Shown piece after piece: positions 3,309-13,380 of a stretch of 24,752 nucleotides of DNA. Positions within the stretch are counted from its first letter, which is position 1. Each line of letters starts with the position of its first letter. The translations under genes were made by a program, and so were the position numbers. The notes beneath the pieces were generated by a model. That model saw only the letters and a list, made by a program, of their open reading frames with translations, had not been told where the DNA came from and did no database searches. This DNA is from a virus. The stretch lies in IMG/VR virus record IMGVR_UViG_3300023184_000491, positions 1-24,752 of that record; one strand, given 5' to 3'.

Positions 3309-3480
3309 TACTAAATTACTTTTGTCAAAATTAAGGCAACCATTGGATTTGGAATTTATCTGTTCTAATATATTAAAGACAAATCAATTTGAGGCTAAAG
3401 AATATTTGGATGAGTTGGTTGAAGACGGAATCCTAACTAAAGAAAATAACTACTACACTATAAAAAATAAAAACAAATGA
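3292..3480 (+). CDS. Small winged-helix-like protein, 62 aa
   Basis: The C-terminal half (KEYLDELVEDGILTKENNYY) reads as the recognition helix plus beta-hairpin wing of a winged helix-turn-helix: helix, then G-I-L/I-T, then a polar turn and an aromatic beta strand. At 62 residues only a minimal wHTH fits. It may bind DNA or act as a small adaptor. It overlaps glutamine synthetase by 4 nt (ATGA), so the two are co-translated, and a link to nitrogen control is possible but not shown. Confidence 0.65.
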   Translation: MEKSFNTKLLLSKLRQPLDLEFICSNILKTNQFEAKEYLDELVEDGILTKENNYYTIKNKNK

Positions 3481-4679
3481 CAAGAATCGAATACATATGG
3501 GTTGACGGGTATACACCTGAACCAAATCTAAGAAGTAAAATTAAAGTTGTTAAAGAAGTAATCTATAAATTAGACGATATTCCTGAATGGAATTTTGATG
3601 GGTCGTCAACATTACAGGCGGAAGGTAATAATTCTGATTGTATTTTAAAACCTGTAAGAGTTTATTGGCCAGGAGTTGACACTTCTAAAATTTACGTTTT
3701 ATGTGAGGTTATGAATCCTGATGGGACAACTCATGAAACAAACCAAAGAGCCAAGTTAGGTGACGAAGATGTTGACATGTGGTTTGGATTTGAACAAGAG
3801 TTTTTTATCCGTGAAGGTAAAAACAAACCAATCTTAGGTCATGGTGAAGGGTCAATTGAAGGACAAGGTAAATACTATTGCGGTGTTGGGTCTAATGTTG
3901 TTGGTAGAGATATTGTCGAGGAGCATATGGATTTCTGTTTAAGAATGGGTATTGAGATAACAGGAGTTAACGCTGAGGTGGCTTTAGGACAATGGGAATA
4001 TCAAGTGTTCTCTAAGGGTAAGATAAAAGCGGGAGACGACCTTTGGATGTCAAGATATTTTATGGAAAAATTATCGGAAAAATATGGTTATTATATTGAT
4101 TACCATCCTAAACCACTTATCTATGGCGAATGGAATGGTTCTGGATTACACACAAATTTCTCAACAGATAAAATGAGAAATAAAGGAGGGGTAAGATACT
4201 TCACCGCACTATTCAATTCGTTAGAGTCAAGAAGACGCCAGCATATTGAGGTATATGGTTCTGATAATGAACTAAGACTTACAGGTAGACACGAGACACA
4301 ATCAATTGATAAGTTTAGTTGGGGTATCAGTGACCGAGGAGCGTCTATTCGAGTTCCCGTGTCAACGGCTAAAGAGTGGAAAGGGTATATTGAGGATAGA
4401 CGACCAGCGTCAAACGCAAACCCTTATGAAATAGTCAAAGTTATTTGTGAAACAATTAACATGGCGGATGAACTAGCCGAGACTGTCCACAACATGTATA
4501 CCAATGTTAGTATGAAAAACTTTGATGAGGTGGCAAAAAAATACAATGGAATTCTAACTAGTGATGAATTATTAAGGGAGTATCAAAATGATGAACAATA
4601 CGAACTTACATCTGAAATGATGGAGTCAAGAGCTAATGGTAAAACTGAAGAAGTAAAATTTAATATAAACGAGAAGTAA
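3477..4679 (+). CDS. glnII: Glutamine synthetase, type II (eukaryotic-type), 400 aa
   Basis: It should make glutamine from glutamate, ammonia and ATP. The GSII signatures are present in order: YIWVDG (6-11), DGSSTLQAEGNNSDCILKPV (41-60), NPDGTTHETNQR (80-91), the FGFEQEF metal site (103-109), GVNAEVALGQWEYQV (163-177), NGSGLHTNFST (220-230), RLTGRHETQSIDKFSWG (267-283), RGASIRVP (287-294) and EDRRPASNANPY (306-317). The catalytic and metal ligands therefore look intact. Bacterial and eukaryotic GSII enzymes are about 330-370 residues. This one carries an extra C-terminal helix-rich tail (about 335-400) ending in a repeated VKFNINEK segment. It is the fifth largest gene here and lies mid-operon, with a 4-nt overlap to the gene before. 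It is likely an auxiliary metabolic gene boosting nitrogen supply. Confidence 0.93.
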   Translation: MTRIEYIWVDGYTPEPNLRSKIKVVKEVIYKLDDIPEWNFDGSSTLQAEGNNSDCILKPVRVYWPGVDTSKIYVLCEVMNPDGTTHETNQRAKLGDEDVDMWFGFEQEFFIREGKNKPILGHGEGSIEGQGKYYCGVGSNVVGRDIVEEHMDFCLRMGIEITGVNAEVALGQWEYQVFSKGKIKAGDDLWMSRYFMEKLSEKYGYYIDYHPKPLIYGEWNGSGLHTNFSTDKMRNKGGVRYFTALFNSLESRRRQHIEVYGSDNELRLTGRHETQSIDKFSWGISDRGASIRVPVSTAKEWKGYIEDRRPASNANPYEIVKVICETINMADELAETVHNMYTNVSMKNFDEVAKKYNGILTSDELLREYQNDEQYELTSEMMESRANGKTEEVKFNINEK

Positions 4680-9436: not shown

Positions 9437-10864
9437 ATGGCATCCAGTAAAAATAAATATGTCCTGGTTGAAAGTGGGTTAAAGGGAATTCATTCTCTCG
9501 CGGCTAGATATAATCTAGCAGAAATTTACTTTCACCAGGACCTTTAACTTGACGGAGTAACTACGGCAATCGCTATGAAAAAATATCTTGAGGATAACGG
9601 AATTAAAGTCGTTGATGCTCATGTTATACAATATGGTGATAAAGAGTTTTCCGTAAAAAAAAATGATGCTCGAGGAGATATAATGCCGGTTTTGGTGGAT
9701 TTTAGCCATTCAAAACCCATGTTTGTGATTCATACTGACCATCACGATAGGCAAGCGGGGGTCGAATCTGGAACGACAACAAATTTTAGACATTCAAGGT
9801 CTAATGTGGAAACTATTTCTCAAGTTGTTTCTCCAAGAGACATATTCCCAAATAGTGACATTTTATTAATTTCAACGGTGGATTCGGCAAATTTTGTAAT
9901 GAATGATATTTCTGTCGATGAGGTAATTAATTATTTATTTAAATTAGATAAAGATTCATCTTTGGCTAAAAATAAAATGGCCTTAGGTTTAGTTGCAAAT
10001 AAATTGTTATTAGCGTTTAAAAACAAACCAGGATTTTTAGAAGAACTTGTAATGAAATGTACACCATCTTTGATGAATATTTTACAGAATATTAAGAGAA
10101 TTATGGTTGAGAAGGGATATGCTAAAGTACCTGAATTAGAAAAGAATAAAGAACAATATATTAAACAAATGAAAACTAGCCCAAATGTTAAAGTTGAGGG
10201 AAATATCATTGTTCAATACGGTGGTGGTAATATGATGAAGCCGGGGTCTTATGACAGATATACACCATTCAAAAATAATCCTGAAGCGGATTTTATTGTT
10301 ATTGCTTGGCCGTTAGGTTTGGTACAAGCGTCTTGTAATCCTTATAAGAAAGAAAGAGAATTAAAAGGAGTTAACTTAGGTGAGATTGCCCAAGAAGTAC
10401 TTTCTAAATGGGAAGGTAGTTTAAAAGAAAAAGAAATCCCATTATCAACAATTAAGTGGATATCGGAAAGGTCAAAAGGTTTTGGACCTGAGTCTGTTGG
10501 TTTTACATTTAAAGACTTTGTTGCTTTATATGGTAACAAGTACAAAACAATGGACAACGGTAGAGAAACATTAACTCATATTGGGAAAATGATGGAAATA
10601 CCGTTCACAGAGTTACCTGAAGAACATAGATTAATGTTAGATAAGATAACAATTAATGCTTGGGATTTGATTCAGGCTAACAGTGGGGGTCATAAATGTA
10701 TCACTAACATTTCGGGTTTAAGTTATCTTGGAAGGTCAAAACGACCACCATCAGGAGCTTATAAATACGATTCTGAAAGTGAGGACTCTCCATATGTTAA
10801 ATTTACAAAAATGATTCAAAATGAATTTGTGAGAGTTTTACAAAGTAAGATTAATAACGGATAA
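9437..10864 (+). CDS. DHH-family phosphoesterase, frame interrupted by a TAA in motif I
   Basis: DHH phosphoesterases hydrolyse phosphodiester or cyclic-dinucleotide bonds with a two-metal centre. The continuous frame from the ATG at 9437 encodes MASSKNKYVLVESG... to IYFHQDL (residues 1-36). It then has TAA at 9545-9547 and continues in the same frame as LDGVTTAIAMKKYLEDNG. Removing six bases (TAACTT) restores HQDLDGVTTAIA, a textbook DHH motif I. The second motif VIHTDHHDRQAG (with VDFSH before it) lies downstream and is intact. The region after the TAA is open for about 440 codons to the stop at 10864. A restart at the ATG at 9575 would give 429 residues lacking motif I. The restored protein would be 473 residues. 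Recoding by hopping CTT-TAA-CTT, a damaged gene, or an assembly error remain open. Confidence 0.8.
9542..9550 (+). other. CTT-TAA-CTT: stop flanked by identical Leu codons
   Basis: An in-frame TAA is flanked by matching CTT codons, exactly within the sequence encoding H-Q-D-L-D-G. Identical take-off and landing codons around a stop are the minimal requirement for a ribosomal hop, as known from T4 gene 60. Confidence 0.5.
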
Positions 10865-10878
10865 CATCGCCCATAATA

Positions 10879-11199
10879 ATGAAATATATAATCACAGAAA
10901 ATAAATTAAATAACGTTGCGTTAAGTTGGATGAATCAAAACTTTAGTTCAGACCAATTGGAAATTGTTAAATCTAAAGAATATCGAGATTCAATTTTTTT
11001 TAAAAAAAATGGAAAAGTTTTGATGGAACAGAATAAAGAAAATAAACGTTTTTACTTTGACTATGATGGAATTTGGTCATTTTTTGAATCTTTTTTTGGT
11101 ATGGAATACGAACAAATAATGGAAGTTCTGAGCTACTGGTTGGAGGAGACTCTCAAATTAAAGGGTTATAGACCCCACCGGCACTTTGTGAAATTTTAG
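10879..11199 (+). CDS. Array-associated paralog A: leader-bearing small protein, 106 aa
   Basis: It starts with the leader-like MKYIITENKLNNVALSWM. A Gly/Lys/aromatic middle follows, and then the family core DGIWSFFESFFGMEYEQIM...SYWLEETLKLKGYRP (about 62-99). Two other genes here (11657-12085 minus and 12739-13035) share this core and the N-terminus, so this is a phage paralog family. The function is unknown and no catalytic residues stand out. The last conserved codons are repeat 1 of array A, and the final seven residues (HRHFVKF) plus the stop are encoded by the first spacer. It follows the DHH gene by 14 nt and probably shares its transcript, with the array as the 3' untranslated region. 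Confidence 0.8.
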   Translation: MKYIITENKLNNVALSWMNQNFSSDQLEIVKSKEYRDSIFFKKNGKVLMEQNKENKRFYFDYDGIWSFFESFFGMEYEQIMEVLSYWLEETLKLKGYRPHRHFVKF

Positions 11200-11293
11200 C
11201 ACAGTTGGAGGAGACTCTCAAATTAAAGGGTTATAGACCATTAATTGAATATATGAATCTCAGATTTACGTTGGAGGAGACTTTCAAATTAAA
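11139..11293 (+). CRISPR. CRISPR-like mini-array A (2 full + 1 degenerate 36-bp repeats, 2 spacers)
   Basis: Repeats at 11139-11174 and 11204-11239 are identical over 36 bp (begin GTTGGAGGAGACTCTC, end GGGTTATAGACC). A third copy from 11270 matches the first 24 bp with one change and then loses GGGTT, typical of a terminal degenerate repeat. Spacers at 11175-11203 (29 bp) and 11240-11269 (30 bp) are unrelated to each other. Repeat positions 11-15 and 24-28 can pair (ACTCT/AGGGT, one G-T wobble). The first repeat is inside the coding sequence ending at 11199, and the last runs into the stop of the convergent DUF192 gene. No cas gene is in the window, so CRISPR function is not established. Confidence 0.65.
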
Positions 11294-11630
11294 ATAGACT
11301 CTTATCCCCCTCTTTAATACTTAATTCCCCGCAAGTACCGCCTCTAAGTTCTAAAATAGTATCCCCTGTTCCAACATAACTAGGACAGTCTTCCGATTTA
11401 CATGGCGGACAACTATGGTGTATTTTAGTTATTGTATTACCGTCAATAAAAATAATATCCAATGGAATAATACAATCCTTCATCCAAAAACCGTGAGGAC
11501 CTTTGTCCATTAGAAATAACATACCATTAAAGTTAGAATCAAAGTCACGACCCATCATACCCTTTTGAGTATCTTTTTGAGTCATCATTACCATCACTTT
11601 AAATTTGTTATCGTTGATTTTTAATATCAT
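11289..11630 (-). CDS. DUF192-family protein, 113 aa
   Basis: It matches DUF192 over its whole length: KGMMGR (23-28), GMLFLM (36-41), GFWMKDCIIPLDIIFID (47-63), then a Cys-bearing loop (SCPPCKSEDC), and YVGTGDTILELRGGT (85-99) with a terminal GD. Bacterial DUF192 proteins are often exported, but this copy has no signal peptide, so it is probably cytoplasmic or packaged. The biochemical role of the family is not settled. A TATTTATA box precedes its start, and its 3' end collides with the degenerate last repeat of array A on the other strand. Confidence 0.85.
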   Translation of the reverse strand: MILKINDNKFKVMVMMTQKDTQKGMMGRDFDSNFNGMLFLMDKGPHGFWMKDCIIPLDIIFIDGNTITKIHHSCPPCKSEDCPSYVGTGDTILELRGGTCGELSIKEGDKSLF

Positions 11631-11633
11631 TCT

Positions 11634-11641
11634 TATAAATA
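11634..11641 (-). promoter_or_regulatory. TATTTATA late-type promoter box, DUF192 gene
   Basis: TATTTATA on the minus strand ends 3 nt before the ATG at 11630. Confidence 0.5.
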
Positions 11642-11656
11642 CTTTTTTTTTAAATT

Positions 11657-12085
11657 TTAGACCTCATCCAATGACAAATCATTAATGTACGAATCGGTGA
11701 AACATTTGATTCCCCTTAAATTGTATACCTCATCCAACCACATCTCTGTAAGTTCCTGAATTTCAGTATAGTTAAGTCCAAATCCTTTTTCCAAAAACGA
11801 CCAAATATCATCATAACTAATATAAACATATAAAGGATTTTTATCGTAAATCATTAAATTACGACCTTTTTTATAACGAAATAATGACCATGATTGACTT
11901 TTTATACTCTGAACAACGTCCAAATTGTTATATATATTTAAGAATTCTCTTGGATTATTGTTAAATGCGATTTTAACAAGTTCTTCAGGTCCCCCAACTA
12001 ACGACGCGGCAGTTCCCCATCCTTGGTTTTTAACTATGGACTTAAATAAATTTTCTTTTTGAGATTCTGTTATGATGATTTTCAT
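11657..12085 (-). CDS. Paralog C of the array-associated family, 142 aa, without an array
   Basis: The leader is MKIIITESQKENLFKSIVKN. The C-terminal core is DDIWSFLEKGFGLNYTEIQE...MWLDEVYNLRGIK (about 92-128), aligning with paralogs at 10879 and 12739. The middle (25-60) is longer than in the others. The DNA segment equivalent to the array repeats (11703-11738) is present once only and has drifted. No repeats follow the stop codon. The tail continues CFTDSYINDLSLDEV, showing what a normal unrepeated 3' end may look like. The function is unknown. A TATTTATA box lies just upstream. Confidence 0.8.
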   Translation of the reverse strand: MKIIITESQKENLFKSIVKNQGWGTAASLVGGPEELVKIAFNNNPREFLNIYNNLDVVQSIKSQSWSLFRYKKGRNLMIYDKNPLYVYISYDDIWSFLEKGFGLNYTEIQELTEMWLDEVYNLRGIKCFTDSYINDLSLDEV

Positions 12086-12089
12086 TATT

Positions 12090-12097
12090 TATAAATA
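12090..12097 (-). promoter_or_regulatory. TATTTATA late-type promoter box, paralog C
   Basis: TATTTATA on the minus strand ends 4 nt before the ATG at 12085. Confidence 0.5.
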
Positions 12098-12154
12098 TAT
12101 TATGTTTTTATAATAAAATATTAAACACTATATTTCTTTTTGAAAAGTTTGTTA

Positions 12155-12162
12155 TATTTATA
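12155..12162 (+). promoter_or_regulatory. TATTTATA box with no adjacent start codon
   Basis: The box is followed within about 80 nt by hairpins and a T-run instead of a gene, suggesting that a short RNA is made. Confidence 0.35.
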
Positions 12163-12243
12163 ACCTAAATAGCCCCAACAACCCCTTTCTTAGTTGGTTA
12201 ATATTAAACCCTGATAAATGTAAGAATTTGTTAGGGTTTTTTG
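12163..12243 (+). ncRNA. Candidate small RNA or leader, about 80 nt
   Basis: Between a TATTTATA box and the smpB promoter lie two potential hairpins: CCAAC...GTTGG around 12175-12197, and AAACCCT (12206-12212) pairing with AGGGTTT (12233-12239) just before TTTTTTG. No open frame with a start is visible. It could be a free-standing small RNA ending at the T-run. It could also simply be a terminator insulating smpB. Confidence 0.3.
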
Positions 12244-12246
12244 TTT
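12206..12246 (+). terminator. Terminator-like hairpin upstream of smpB
   Basis: A 7-bp stem (AAACCCT/AGGGTTT) with a 20-nt loop, then a T-run. No plus-strand gene ends nearby, so it would close the candidate small RNA. Confidence 0.5.
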
Positions 12247-12254
12247 TTTATATA

Positions 12255-12262
12255 TACCTTTG
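12255..12262 (+). promoter_or_regulatory. Bacteroidetes-type -7 box (TACCTTTG) of smpB
   Basis: TAnnTTTG ends 5 nt before the smpB ATG, so the transcript would start at or next to the start codon. No well-spaced -33 TTTG is seen (nearest at 12227-12230, spacing 24). Confidence 0.55.
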
Positions 12263-12267
12263 TGATT

Positions 12268-12693
12268 ATGAAGACAAAAGTTCGTATTGAGAATAGAAAA
12301 GTTAAGTTTGAGTACTTTATTGAGGAAACATTATCGGCAGGTATTAAATTAACTGGTGTTGAGGTGAAGAGAATCAGAGAAGGAAAAATCTCTATGACCG
12401 ACTCGTTCTGTTATTTTAATAATGGGGAGTTATATATGAAAGGGGTTCTTATCCAAGGAATTGGGAATGATAATATTGCTACCGATAAAAAATTGTTATT
12501 GAAGAAAAAACAATTAAGAAAACTTGAATCAGAGTTGGTTAAGGGATATACAATCATTCCTCATGTATTATATGAGAATGACAGGGGGTTACTTAAGGTT
12601 AATATTGTGTTAGCTAAAGGTAAAAAACTTTGGGATAAGCGCGAAAAAATTAAAGAGAGGGATATTGATAGGGAATCCAAACAATCTATATAA
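12268..12693 (+). CDS. smpB: SmpB, tmRNA-binding trans-translation protein, 141 aa
   Basis: SmpB binds tmRNA (SsrA) and brings it to stalled ribosomes. The family pattern is clear: IENRKVKFEYFIEETLSAGI (6-25), LTGVEVKRIREGKISMTDSF (27-46), KKLLLKKKQLRKLE (about 74-87), KGYTIIP (91-97), KVNIVLAKGKKLWDKREKIK (108-127) and RDIDRE (about 130-135). It is slightly shorter than host SmpB (about 150-160 residues), mainly at the N-terminus. The ATG at 12268 is chosen because upstream in-frame codons overlap the TACCTTTG promoter. No tmRNA gene is visible in the window, so it would act with the host tmRNA or one encoded elsewhere on the phage. Confidence 0.9.
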   Translation: MKTKVRIENRKVKFEYFIEETLSAGIKLTGVEVKRIREGKISMTDSFCYFNNGELYMKGVLIQGIGNDNIATDKKLLLKKKQLRKLESELVKGYTIIPHVLYENDRGLLKVNIVLAKGKKLWDKREKIKERDIDRESKQSI

Positions 12694-12738
12694 TATTTTG
12701 TTTTATGTTGAACAATATACTAAAGAATTAAAGATAAA

Positions 12739-13035
12739 ATGATTGAAAATAAATTAGATAAGGTCGCTTTAACATGGCTCAATAATAACTTTGGGAATTT
12801 AAAACCAGTCGTTATGGATGATAAAACATATTATGTTAATGAAGATAGATTACCATTATTTTATTATTATCAGGATGAAAAAAATGGATACAGTTACATA
12901 AATTACAATGAAATTTGGTCATTTTTAGAATCCATTTTTGGTATGAATTACCAACAAATACGGGGAGTTATAAGAGATTGGTTGGAAGAGACCTATAATT
13001 TGAAGGGTCTAACACCCAGGAAAAGAACCTTATAA
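12739..13035 (+). CDS. Array-associated paralog B, 98 aa
   Basis: It aligns with the 10879 gene from its first residues (MIENKLDKVALTWLNNNF against ITENKLNNVALSWMNQNF), so the leader has been trimmed by about four residues. The family core is NEIWSFLESIFGMNYQQIRG...DWLEETYNLKGLTP (about 58-94). Codons for the WLEETYNLKGLTP end (12981-13016) are repeat 1 of array B, and the remaining residues RKRTL and the stop come from spacer 1. It lies 45 nt after smpB and probably shares its transcript. The function is unknown. Confidence 0.8.
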   Translation: MIENKLDKVALTWLNNNFGNLKPVVMDDKTYYVNEDRLPLFYYYQDEKNGYSYINYNEIWSFLESIFGMNYQQIRGVIRDWLEETYNLKGLTPRKRTL

Positions 13036-13380
13036 TTATTATCTGGGTTGGAAGAGACCTATAATTTGAAGGGTCTAACACCCTTTTTTAATTCATAACA
13101 GATTACTTCTTGTTGGAAGAGACCTATAATTTGAAGGGTCTAACACCGGAAAAGCATCGTTTGTTGAACCGGCTCCAAGTTGGAAGACTTATTTACACTG
13201 CGTTAATTTAGGGGTGAAACCTATTTAACTAGTTGTCTAACGAATAATAGTCCCTGTTGTTGAGGAAAATTAGAACCTTTGGTTATATTCTCAATTGTGA
13301 TTCCAAGTCAGATAGGCAAGTCTGATTTTTAAGTCTTTTATGTTCCTAACATAGACCTATAATTTGAAGGGTCTAACACC
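12981..13380 (+). CRISPR. CRISPR-like array B (3 identical 36-bp repeats plus degenerate copies)
   Basis: Identical 36-bp repeats lie at 12981-13016, 13047-13082 and 13112-13147 (begin GTTGGAAGAGACC, end GGGTCTAACACC). The spacers are unrelated: 13017-13046 (30 bp), 13083-13111 (29 bp) and 13148-13178 (31 bp). A 9-bp repeat start (GTTGGAAGA) follows at 13179. A diverged copy fits at 13209-13244, keeping ACCTAT and GTCTAAC at the correct spacing. A copy lacking its first 8 bp lies at 13353-13380. Positions 9-13 and 26-30 pair perfectly (AGACC/GGTCT). Repeat 1 is coding and the rest is non-coding, and the tract decays away from the gene like the trailer end of a CRISPR array. Confidence 0.7.
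13307..13330 (+). terminator. Weak terminator-like hairpin inside the array B tract
   Basis: GTCAGA/TCTGAT (one wobble), 8-nt loop TAGGCAAG, then five T. It could end the paralog B/array transcript before the last partial repeat. Confidence 0.4.

Follow-up and report, generated by a model that had tools for sequence, protein, structure and literature searches.

The 24,752-base IMG/VR virus record IMGVR_UViG_3300023184_000491 (the window, to which all array coordinates refer) contains two related genes, A and B, whose coding 3' ends each form the first repeat of an array with the geometry of clustered regularly interspaced short palindromic repeats (CRISPR). A first-pass annotation had described identical 36-nucleotide (nt) repeats separated by spacers of 29-31 nt in both arrays, and our analysis confirmed this description. 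Its further claim, that repeat 1 is the coding 3' end of the gene, holds almost exactly: in genes A and B the repeat opens with the third base of an invariant Trp codon, spans 11 full codons and closes with the CC of the next Pro codon (W|LEETxxLKGxxP), and the final residues and the stop codon, as had also been claimed, come from spacer 1. Weighing all the results below, we put it at slightly better than an even chance that these are phage-borne CRISPR-type arrays lying inside a gene, supplied with spacers in trans and serving as guides.

Distribution of the arrays and turnover of their spacers

We searched viral contigs with gene B and then with an alignment, fetching 35 and 79 loci, respectively; the whole catalogue comprises ~140 IMG/VR loci (L numbers) from T4-like phages with genomes of up to ~300 kb. 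A profile search of the fetched loci identified 127 distinct copies of a ~95-amino-acid (aa) domain, and 89 of them are followed by an array of two to eight 36-nt repeats, so the arrays that the first-pass annotation had proposed to look for in related phage contigs are present there, with gaps of 27-33 nt. These genes, which we call family 1, have spacers with a mode of 30 nt (exactly 30 nt in 66/168), and the coding end of the domain is repeat 1 in every array. Many array-bearing gene copies occur per genome, with repeats that differ between arrays. The source contigs belong to one T4-like phage group of ~31% GC with conserved gene content, and a 296-kb member encodes the gp23 capsid, gp20 portal and prohead protease families. 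Identical arrays were recovered in several independent assemblies (L013-L016; L009-L011; L034-L036). Because 89/127 relatives carry arrays and independent assemblies agree, chance and assembly artefact are ruled out. A plain tandem protein repeat was rejected since the spacers are unlike one another while the repeats are identical.

The domain itself has no relative among 84,980 bacterial and archaeal genomes, none in INPHARED and no Pfam family. An AlphaFold2 (AF2) model of the gene B domain is confident (predicted local distance difference test score, pLDDT, 93.9), and it matched no fold in the PDB; the structural matches are only uncharacterised proteins of uncultured phages.

The spacers turn over between near-identical genes. 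The relatives of gene B in L005, L006 and L007 are 98%, 89% and 84% identical to it, respectively, and their spacers are completely different in all three; a comparison of spacers between relatives, suggested by the first-pass annotation, thus found turnover. Each of these arrays lies next to the gene, and the flank downstream of it is identical or nearly identical to that of array B: the sequence GGATATTTAG stands directly after the terminal repeat of array B, is the same in L005, L006 and L009, and has one-base variants in L007.

Acquisition is polarised. L190 and L183 have four distal spacers in common and differ in the gene-proximal spacer 1 alone, and L029 equals L028 plus one gene-proximal unit. 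The oldest spacer common to L018, L026 and L032 is the single spacer of L018 and L032 and the last of four in L026. Additionally, the three gene-nearest repeats of L023 match the current version of repeat 1, and the older repeats carry another. Internal repeats retain on average 35.3/36 identity to repeat 1, terminal repeats 26/36, with the decay in the 3' half. We also considered whether the terminal repeat preserves the native stop of the gene; 51/89 terminal repeats stop within 12 residues, which is shorter than any current gene, so the terminal repeats are decayed and not an ancestral gene end. Polarised acquisition at the gene-proximal end, as in CRISPR adaptation, is therefore well supported, and turnover, polarity and terminal-repeat decay together argue that the arrays grow by CRISPR-type adaptation. 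In common with CRISPR arrays they have near-identical direct repeats, unique spacers of constant length and acquisition at one end. Polarity and turnover thus favour one of the mechanisms that the first-pass annotation had put forward, a machinery adding captured spacers at gene ends; another, a guide-RNA array carried in the 3' untranslated region of the mRNA, is inferred, no protospacer, phage Cas protein or conserved hairpin having been found.

The composition of the spacers is foreign, being strand-symmetric and 34.7% GC versus 30.8% for the phages. We compared the spacers with 2.5 Mb of family DNA at the nucleotide (Hamming) and peptide levels and found no excess over reversed controls. 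With matches at the level of the reversed-spacer controls, next to none of the stored DNA derives from the arrays' own phage family, though family DNA dominates the infected cell. An L038 spacer matches a related phage at 20/31 positions; considered as a protospacer, this was set aside as too weak.

One 30-nt palindromic piece was found, with the same two ends and in opposite orientation, as spacer 2 of L006 (family 1) and as spacer 1 of L216, which belongs to a second gene family (family 2, below). The two loci come from different metagenomes, and within IMG/VR the piece occurs only in these two arrays. Its palindrome, ACTTGTAAGTATTCCTTACAAGT, lies at L075:1045-1068 and L216:4095-4118 and has been captured as a spacer in both families. 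A 26/27 match to the shared spacer lies just 3' of an open reading frame (ORF) in MT836190, an uncultured faecal phage, and weaker matches to the palindrome were noted in phage helicase genes and in Proteus and Neisseria records. The palindrome is perhaps a common operator-like element.

Features of the arrays and their genes in the window
Feature	Position	Strand	Remarks
Gene A	10879..11199	+	106 aa; domain, LEETLKLKGYRP end from repeat, HRHFVKF tail from spacer
Array A repeat 1, coding	11139..11174	+	GTTGGAGGAGACTCTCAAATTAAAGGGTTATAGACC
Array A spacer 1	11175..11203	+	29 nt; encodes gene A tail and stop
Array A repeat 2	11204..11239	+	identical to array A repeat 1
Array A spacer 2	11240..11269	+	30 nt
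Array A terminal repeat	11270..11305	+	match confined to 5' part, 24/36; 3' half degenerate
Third paralog	11657..12085	-	142 aa; WLDEVYNLRG end
Third paralog repeat 1	about 11703-11738	-	
Third paralog second (terminal) repeat	11637..11672	-	degenerate; 66 nt from its repeat 1
Gene B	12739..13035	+	98 aa; domain, LEETYNLKGLTP, then RKRTL tail from spacer 1
Array B repeat 1, coding	12981..13016	+	GTTGGAAGAGACCTATAATTTGAAGGGTCTAACACC
Array B spacer 1	13017..13046	+	30 nt
Array B repeat 2	13047..13082	+	identical to array B repeats 1 and 3
Array B spacer 2	13083..13111	+	29 nt
Array B repeat 3	13112..13147	+	identical to array B repeats 1 and 2
Array B spacer 3	13148..13178	+	31 nt
Array B terminal (fourth) repeat, first 9 nt	13179..13187	+	GTTGGAAGA; interrupted by insertion
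Insertion within array B terminal repeat	13188..13353		~166 nt; strand not assigned
Array B terminal repeat, other 27 nt	13354..13380	+	GACCTATAATTTGAAGGGTCTAACACC

Constraint on the repeat and translation of the spacers

The repeat is constrained at the nucleotide level. In its second half, the pairwise identity at the GxTP positions is 0.84 (G), 0.63 (T) and 0.78 (P) among array genes, compared with 0.35, 0.13 and 0.21 among array-less genes; genes with and without arrays alike keep the Trp, Leu, Tyr and Leu of the first half. Several synonymous positions are frozen in array genes only, with, for example, a synonymous difference of 0.00 versus 0.37 at Asn AAT and of 0.14 versus 0.49 at Glu GAG.

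We then asked how the spacers read in the frame of the gene. Stops occur in 42/154 distinct family-1 spacers versus 75.8 expected by shuffling (p = 4e-8); in the other five frames, 58 to 69 of the 154 contain stops. The depletion falls on the first five spacer codons (9 stops versus 43 in the reverse-complement control), with codons 5-9 showing 45 versus 41, and only 2% of genes end fewer than 18 residues after the Trp, as against 25% in the control. Leaving aside the lack of stops, the amino acids encoded by the first five codons are nearly random in composition. The same stop depletion is seen in spacers that now lie farther from the gene, as would be expected had each been first at its acquisition. 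Repeat 1 and spacer 1 are therefore real protein, and acquisitions are filtered for a minimal tail. This translation and reading-frame filtering of the spacers adds to what the first-pass annotation had described, as does the degenerate second repeat of the third paralog at the 66-nt period.

A second gene family, in which the whole array is coding, extends that description further. Family 2 first came to light in a relative of 304 kb, and 20 more loci with it followed. Its repeat, GTTGAAGATACCATTCAAAATGGGGTGAAACACACC, aligns to the family-1 repeat with a z of about 4.6 and is read one base out of phase, giving VEDTIQNGVKHT where family 1 gives LEETYNLRGLTP; its head domain is distantly related to the family-1 domain (hhalign E 1.3e-4). 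The units are 66 nt long, up to 18 of them in frame and translated, with up to 17 spacers, and 102/126 measured spacers are exactly 30 nt. The AF2 model of family 2 has a confident head and a low-confidence array part. Old units common to different phages differ by about 37:35 synonymous to non-synonymous changes, whereas roughly 1:3 would be expected under neutrality; this suggests that they are constrained as protein. Units such as EDGDWLDGDER and IGTLRRTLLG recur across phages (L204-L215) with many synonymous changes, like spacers turned into conserved protein. A scan of the fetched DNA for the common repeat core found these two families only.

Several further observations concern the array proteins and their surroundings. 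The array domain is fused onto the ends of other enzymes at L019:1757-4633, L023:3484-4977, L025:3888-5288 and L017:290-2095, the partners including, by eye, a superoxide-dismutase-like polyprotein and a DHH-phosphoesterase-like protein homologous to window 9575-10864. In some fusions the array lies in mid-ORF and in frame, and the polyproteins of L019 and L024 read through such arrays. MKIIITE|S-like starts are common among N-termini in the window (875, 6227, 7404, 10879, 11657 on the minus strand, and 21790), the fused domains in the polyproteins of L019, L024 and L025 are joined by INE|S, and a relative encodes the T4-type prohead protease PF03420. Together with the protease, MKIIITE|S and INE|S look like capsid-targeting and cleavage sites, so packaging of the array proteins in the phage head is conceivable. 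SmpB (PF01668, 12241-12693) and a DUF192 protein (11289-11630, minus strand) adjoin the arrays, the terminal repeat of array A overlapping the 3' end of the DUF192 gene, and the window contains no tmRNA. Neither a second copy of the ~166-nt insertion in array B within the fetched phage DNA nor an Rfam match to it was found. Farther away, window 3477-4679 encodes a 400-aa protein that is glutamine-synthetase-like by eye, an unusual phage metabolic gene whose sole match is an unnamed PHROG.

Mechanism, machinery and rival explanations

In the reading that we favour, the 36-nt coding 3' end of a small phage domain would serve as a CRISPR-like repeat, with the upstream coding sequence replacing the leader. 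An integrase of the Cas1-Cas2 type, supplied in trans and most likely by a Bacteroidota host, would integrate foreign pieces of ~30 bp on the gene side of repeat 1, each time with a duplication of the repeat, so that older units are pushed away from the gene and the terminal repeat is left to decay. The array would be carried in the mRNA of the gene itself and presumably cut into guide RNAs for a host effector, for which RNA-guided Cas13b (type VI-B) is the best lead. Each new spacer would also be a new protein tail, and the insertions that persist would be those keeping about five or more spacer codons open. The data show the structure of the arrays, the turnover, polarity and foreign composition of the spacers, the constraint from translation and that on the repeat as nucleic acid; the integrase, the host, the guide processing and the targets in this scheme are what we infer.

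Flavobacterium II-C and VI-B arrays have 36-bp repeats and take up new spacers of 28-32 bp, mostly 30 (PMC8092290), and the sizes found here, 36 and mostly 30 nt, equal theirs. The VI-B arrays of F. columnare take up spacers in trans via the II-C Cas1 (PMC8092290), and acquisition through host adaptation modules has been proposed for virus mini-arrays (PMC6858448). As to the host, the window gave no significant signal for a Bacteroidota promoter motif, which showed mild enrichment in two large relatives and none in a third. Family-1 repeats align with z 5.3-6.9 to two sequences that we take to be flavobacterial Cas13b repeats, which serves as a lead only; what are presumably Prevotella Cas13b repeats gave weaker alignments, and presumed Cas12a repeats stayed at background.

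A number of results weigh against this scheme. BLAST of 73 and then 154 spacers against the fetched phage DNA, INPHARED and PLSDB, and exact and codon-degenerate scans of IMG/VR with four single spacers, returned no convincing protospacer. Cas1 (PF01867) was found in 0/28 phage records and Cas2 (PF09827) in 0/15, the records being fragments and including some of 304, 296 and 261 kb; no TnpB/Cas12f-type protein (PF07282) exceeded the cut-off in 15 records, in which IscB, Cas9 and Cas13 were not searched. The repeat consensus pattern had no match in the 84,980 cellular genomes, and the repeats matched no CRISPR family in Rfam. RNAalifold gave no consensus pair for a hairpin in the repeat. The repeats of one genome are unequal between arrays, which would be odd for loading a single host effector, and the open-frame filter that in family 2 extends over the entire array favours a protein role. 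Other searches bear on the same questions: array B alone forms a 6-bp stem; the top pairs in mutual information between repeat positions are mostly non-complementary; Pfam and PADLOC scans of the 296-kb relative showed no Cas protein among the families listed, at most 25 in each Pfam list and, with PADLOC, dominated by methyltransferases; and a scan of the opposite strand for anti-repeats resembling a trans-activating CRISPR RNA returned array positions plus isolated single matches only. With no cas1/cas2 in the records and no cellular match to the repeat, the adaptation machinery either acts in trans or is unknown.

The strongest rival holds that the element generates hypervariable proteins. 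Each insertion of repeat and spacer would swap or lengthen the C-terminal tail, with 10 variable residues per unit, in a phage protein, which might be packaged and then injected, and a family-1 array would be no more than a stack of former tails. The purging of stops from the first five spacer codons, the rarity of genes ending soon after the Trp, the family-2 arrays that stay open and in frame over up to 18 units with a predominant spacer length of 30 nt, the synonymous excess in their old shared units and the polyproteins that read through mid-ORF arrays are all expected from such a generator. In contrast, family 1 has up to six perfect repeats past the stop and out of frame (L017 has eight repeats, and its ORF ends in repeat 2), its spacer lengths are not multiples of three, its first five spacer codons are near-random in amino acids apart from the absent stops, and the 3' half of the repeat and some synonymous sites are fixed as nucleotides. 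We consider a pure protein generator unlikely, although it deserves serious weight. The two models can be combined, and one element may act as memory and protein tail together. That the gene end is at once a CRISPR-type integration site and a coding repeat, so that captured DNA is both a stored guide and a translated tail and old family-2 units turn into conserved protein, strikes us as a real possibility that falls somewhat short of even.

The remaining two explanations appear improbable to us. The gene end might be a decoy that mimics a host CRISPR repeat and sequesters host Cas proteins, the spacers being accidental insertions by host adaptation. Phage RNAs mimicking CRISPR repeats, the RNA anti-CRISPRs (Racrs), are indeed known (PMC10651486), and the likeness of family-1 repeats to the presumed flavobacterial Cas13b repeats would fit a decoy as well; yet Racrs are non-coding and occur singly, arrays of up to seven spacers in many copies per genome are more than accident would suggest, and no host repeat was found among the cellular genomes. 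Rated a shade lower still is a new acquisition machinery, unrelated to Cas1-Cas2 and encoded elsewhere in the phage, that duplicates gene ends with captured DNA. The failure to find Cas1 or Cas2 in records of up to 304 kb, a repeat without match in cellular genomes and the confinement of the arrays to one phage group would suit it, but the 36 + 30 geometry, the polarity and the terminal-repeat decay equal those of Bacteroidota CRISPR adaptation, and no candidate gene turned up.

Relation to known systems and significance

The arrays depart from the general CRISPR array in several respects: coding sequence of the domain stands where a non-coding leader would precede repeat 1; cas1/cas2 were not found in the same phage records, which are fragments, so that supply in trans is possible; and the repeats show neither a consensus hairpin nor a match to a known repeat family. 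The mini-CRISPRs of the Sulfolobales viruses SPV1 and SPV2 (PMC6858448) are likewise cas-less virus arrays with spacer turnover at one genomic place. However, they are intergenic, with host-like leaders and repeats and 1-2 spacers, whereas the present arrays lie inside a gene, hold 1-7 spacers (up to 17 in family 2) and occur many to a genome with different repeats; moreover, SPV1/SPV2 spacers target sister viruses, while here own-family matches equal the reversed-spacer control. The Flavobacterium VI-B/II-C systems (PMC8092290) resemble ours in 36-nt repeats beginning GTTG, in spacers of 28-32 nt, mostly 30, and in an array that lies apart from cas1/cas2 and acquires in trans; they differ in that our repeat is coding, coding sequence takes the place of the leader and no Cas13b is linked (Cas13b was not searched).

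Other systems share single traits with the arrays. Racrs (PMC10651486) are also phage-encoded repeat mimics, but each is a solitary non-coding RNA, in contrast to multi-unit arrays with changing spacers in an ORF. TIGR-Tas (PMC12045711) likewise places a phage-associated array beside a protein gene; its units comprise two repeats and two ~9-nt spacers and yield 36-nt RNAs, compared with one 36-nt repeat and one 30-nt spacer per 66-nt unit here. The reRNA (omega RNA) of TnpB/IscB is an RNA scaffold overlapping the 3' end of a protein gene, whereas our arrays have many guides per scaffold and a ~95-aa protein without a known nuclease fold, with no PF07282 over the cut-off. Diversity-generating retroelements rely on a reverse transcriptase that copies a template repeat with mutations at A and so produce variants of one template, while the spacers within our arrays are mutually unrelated. 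Our search of open-access papers found mini-CRISPRs, Racrs and TIGR-Tas and no coding array growing at a gene end, which upholds the earlier statement that no such system had been described. Even if Cas1-Cas2 were proven to act in trans, this would be a CRISPR array that codes for protein, and we found no precedent for one.

CRISPR arrays are regarded as non-coding memory. In two related phage gene families, arrays grow within open reading frames and are selected as repeat and protein at once. Should the integrase prove to be host Cas1-Cas2, phages would have made their gene ends into places where bacterial immune memory is deposited; should the tails matter, new protein sequence would arise from captured DNA. 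In both cases the spacers can be read as a record of what uncultured giant phages encounter.

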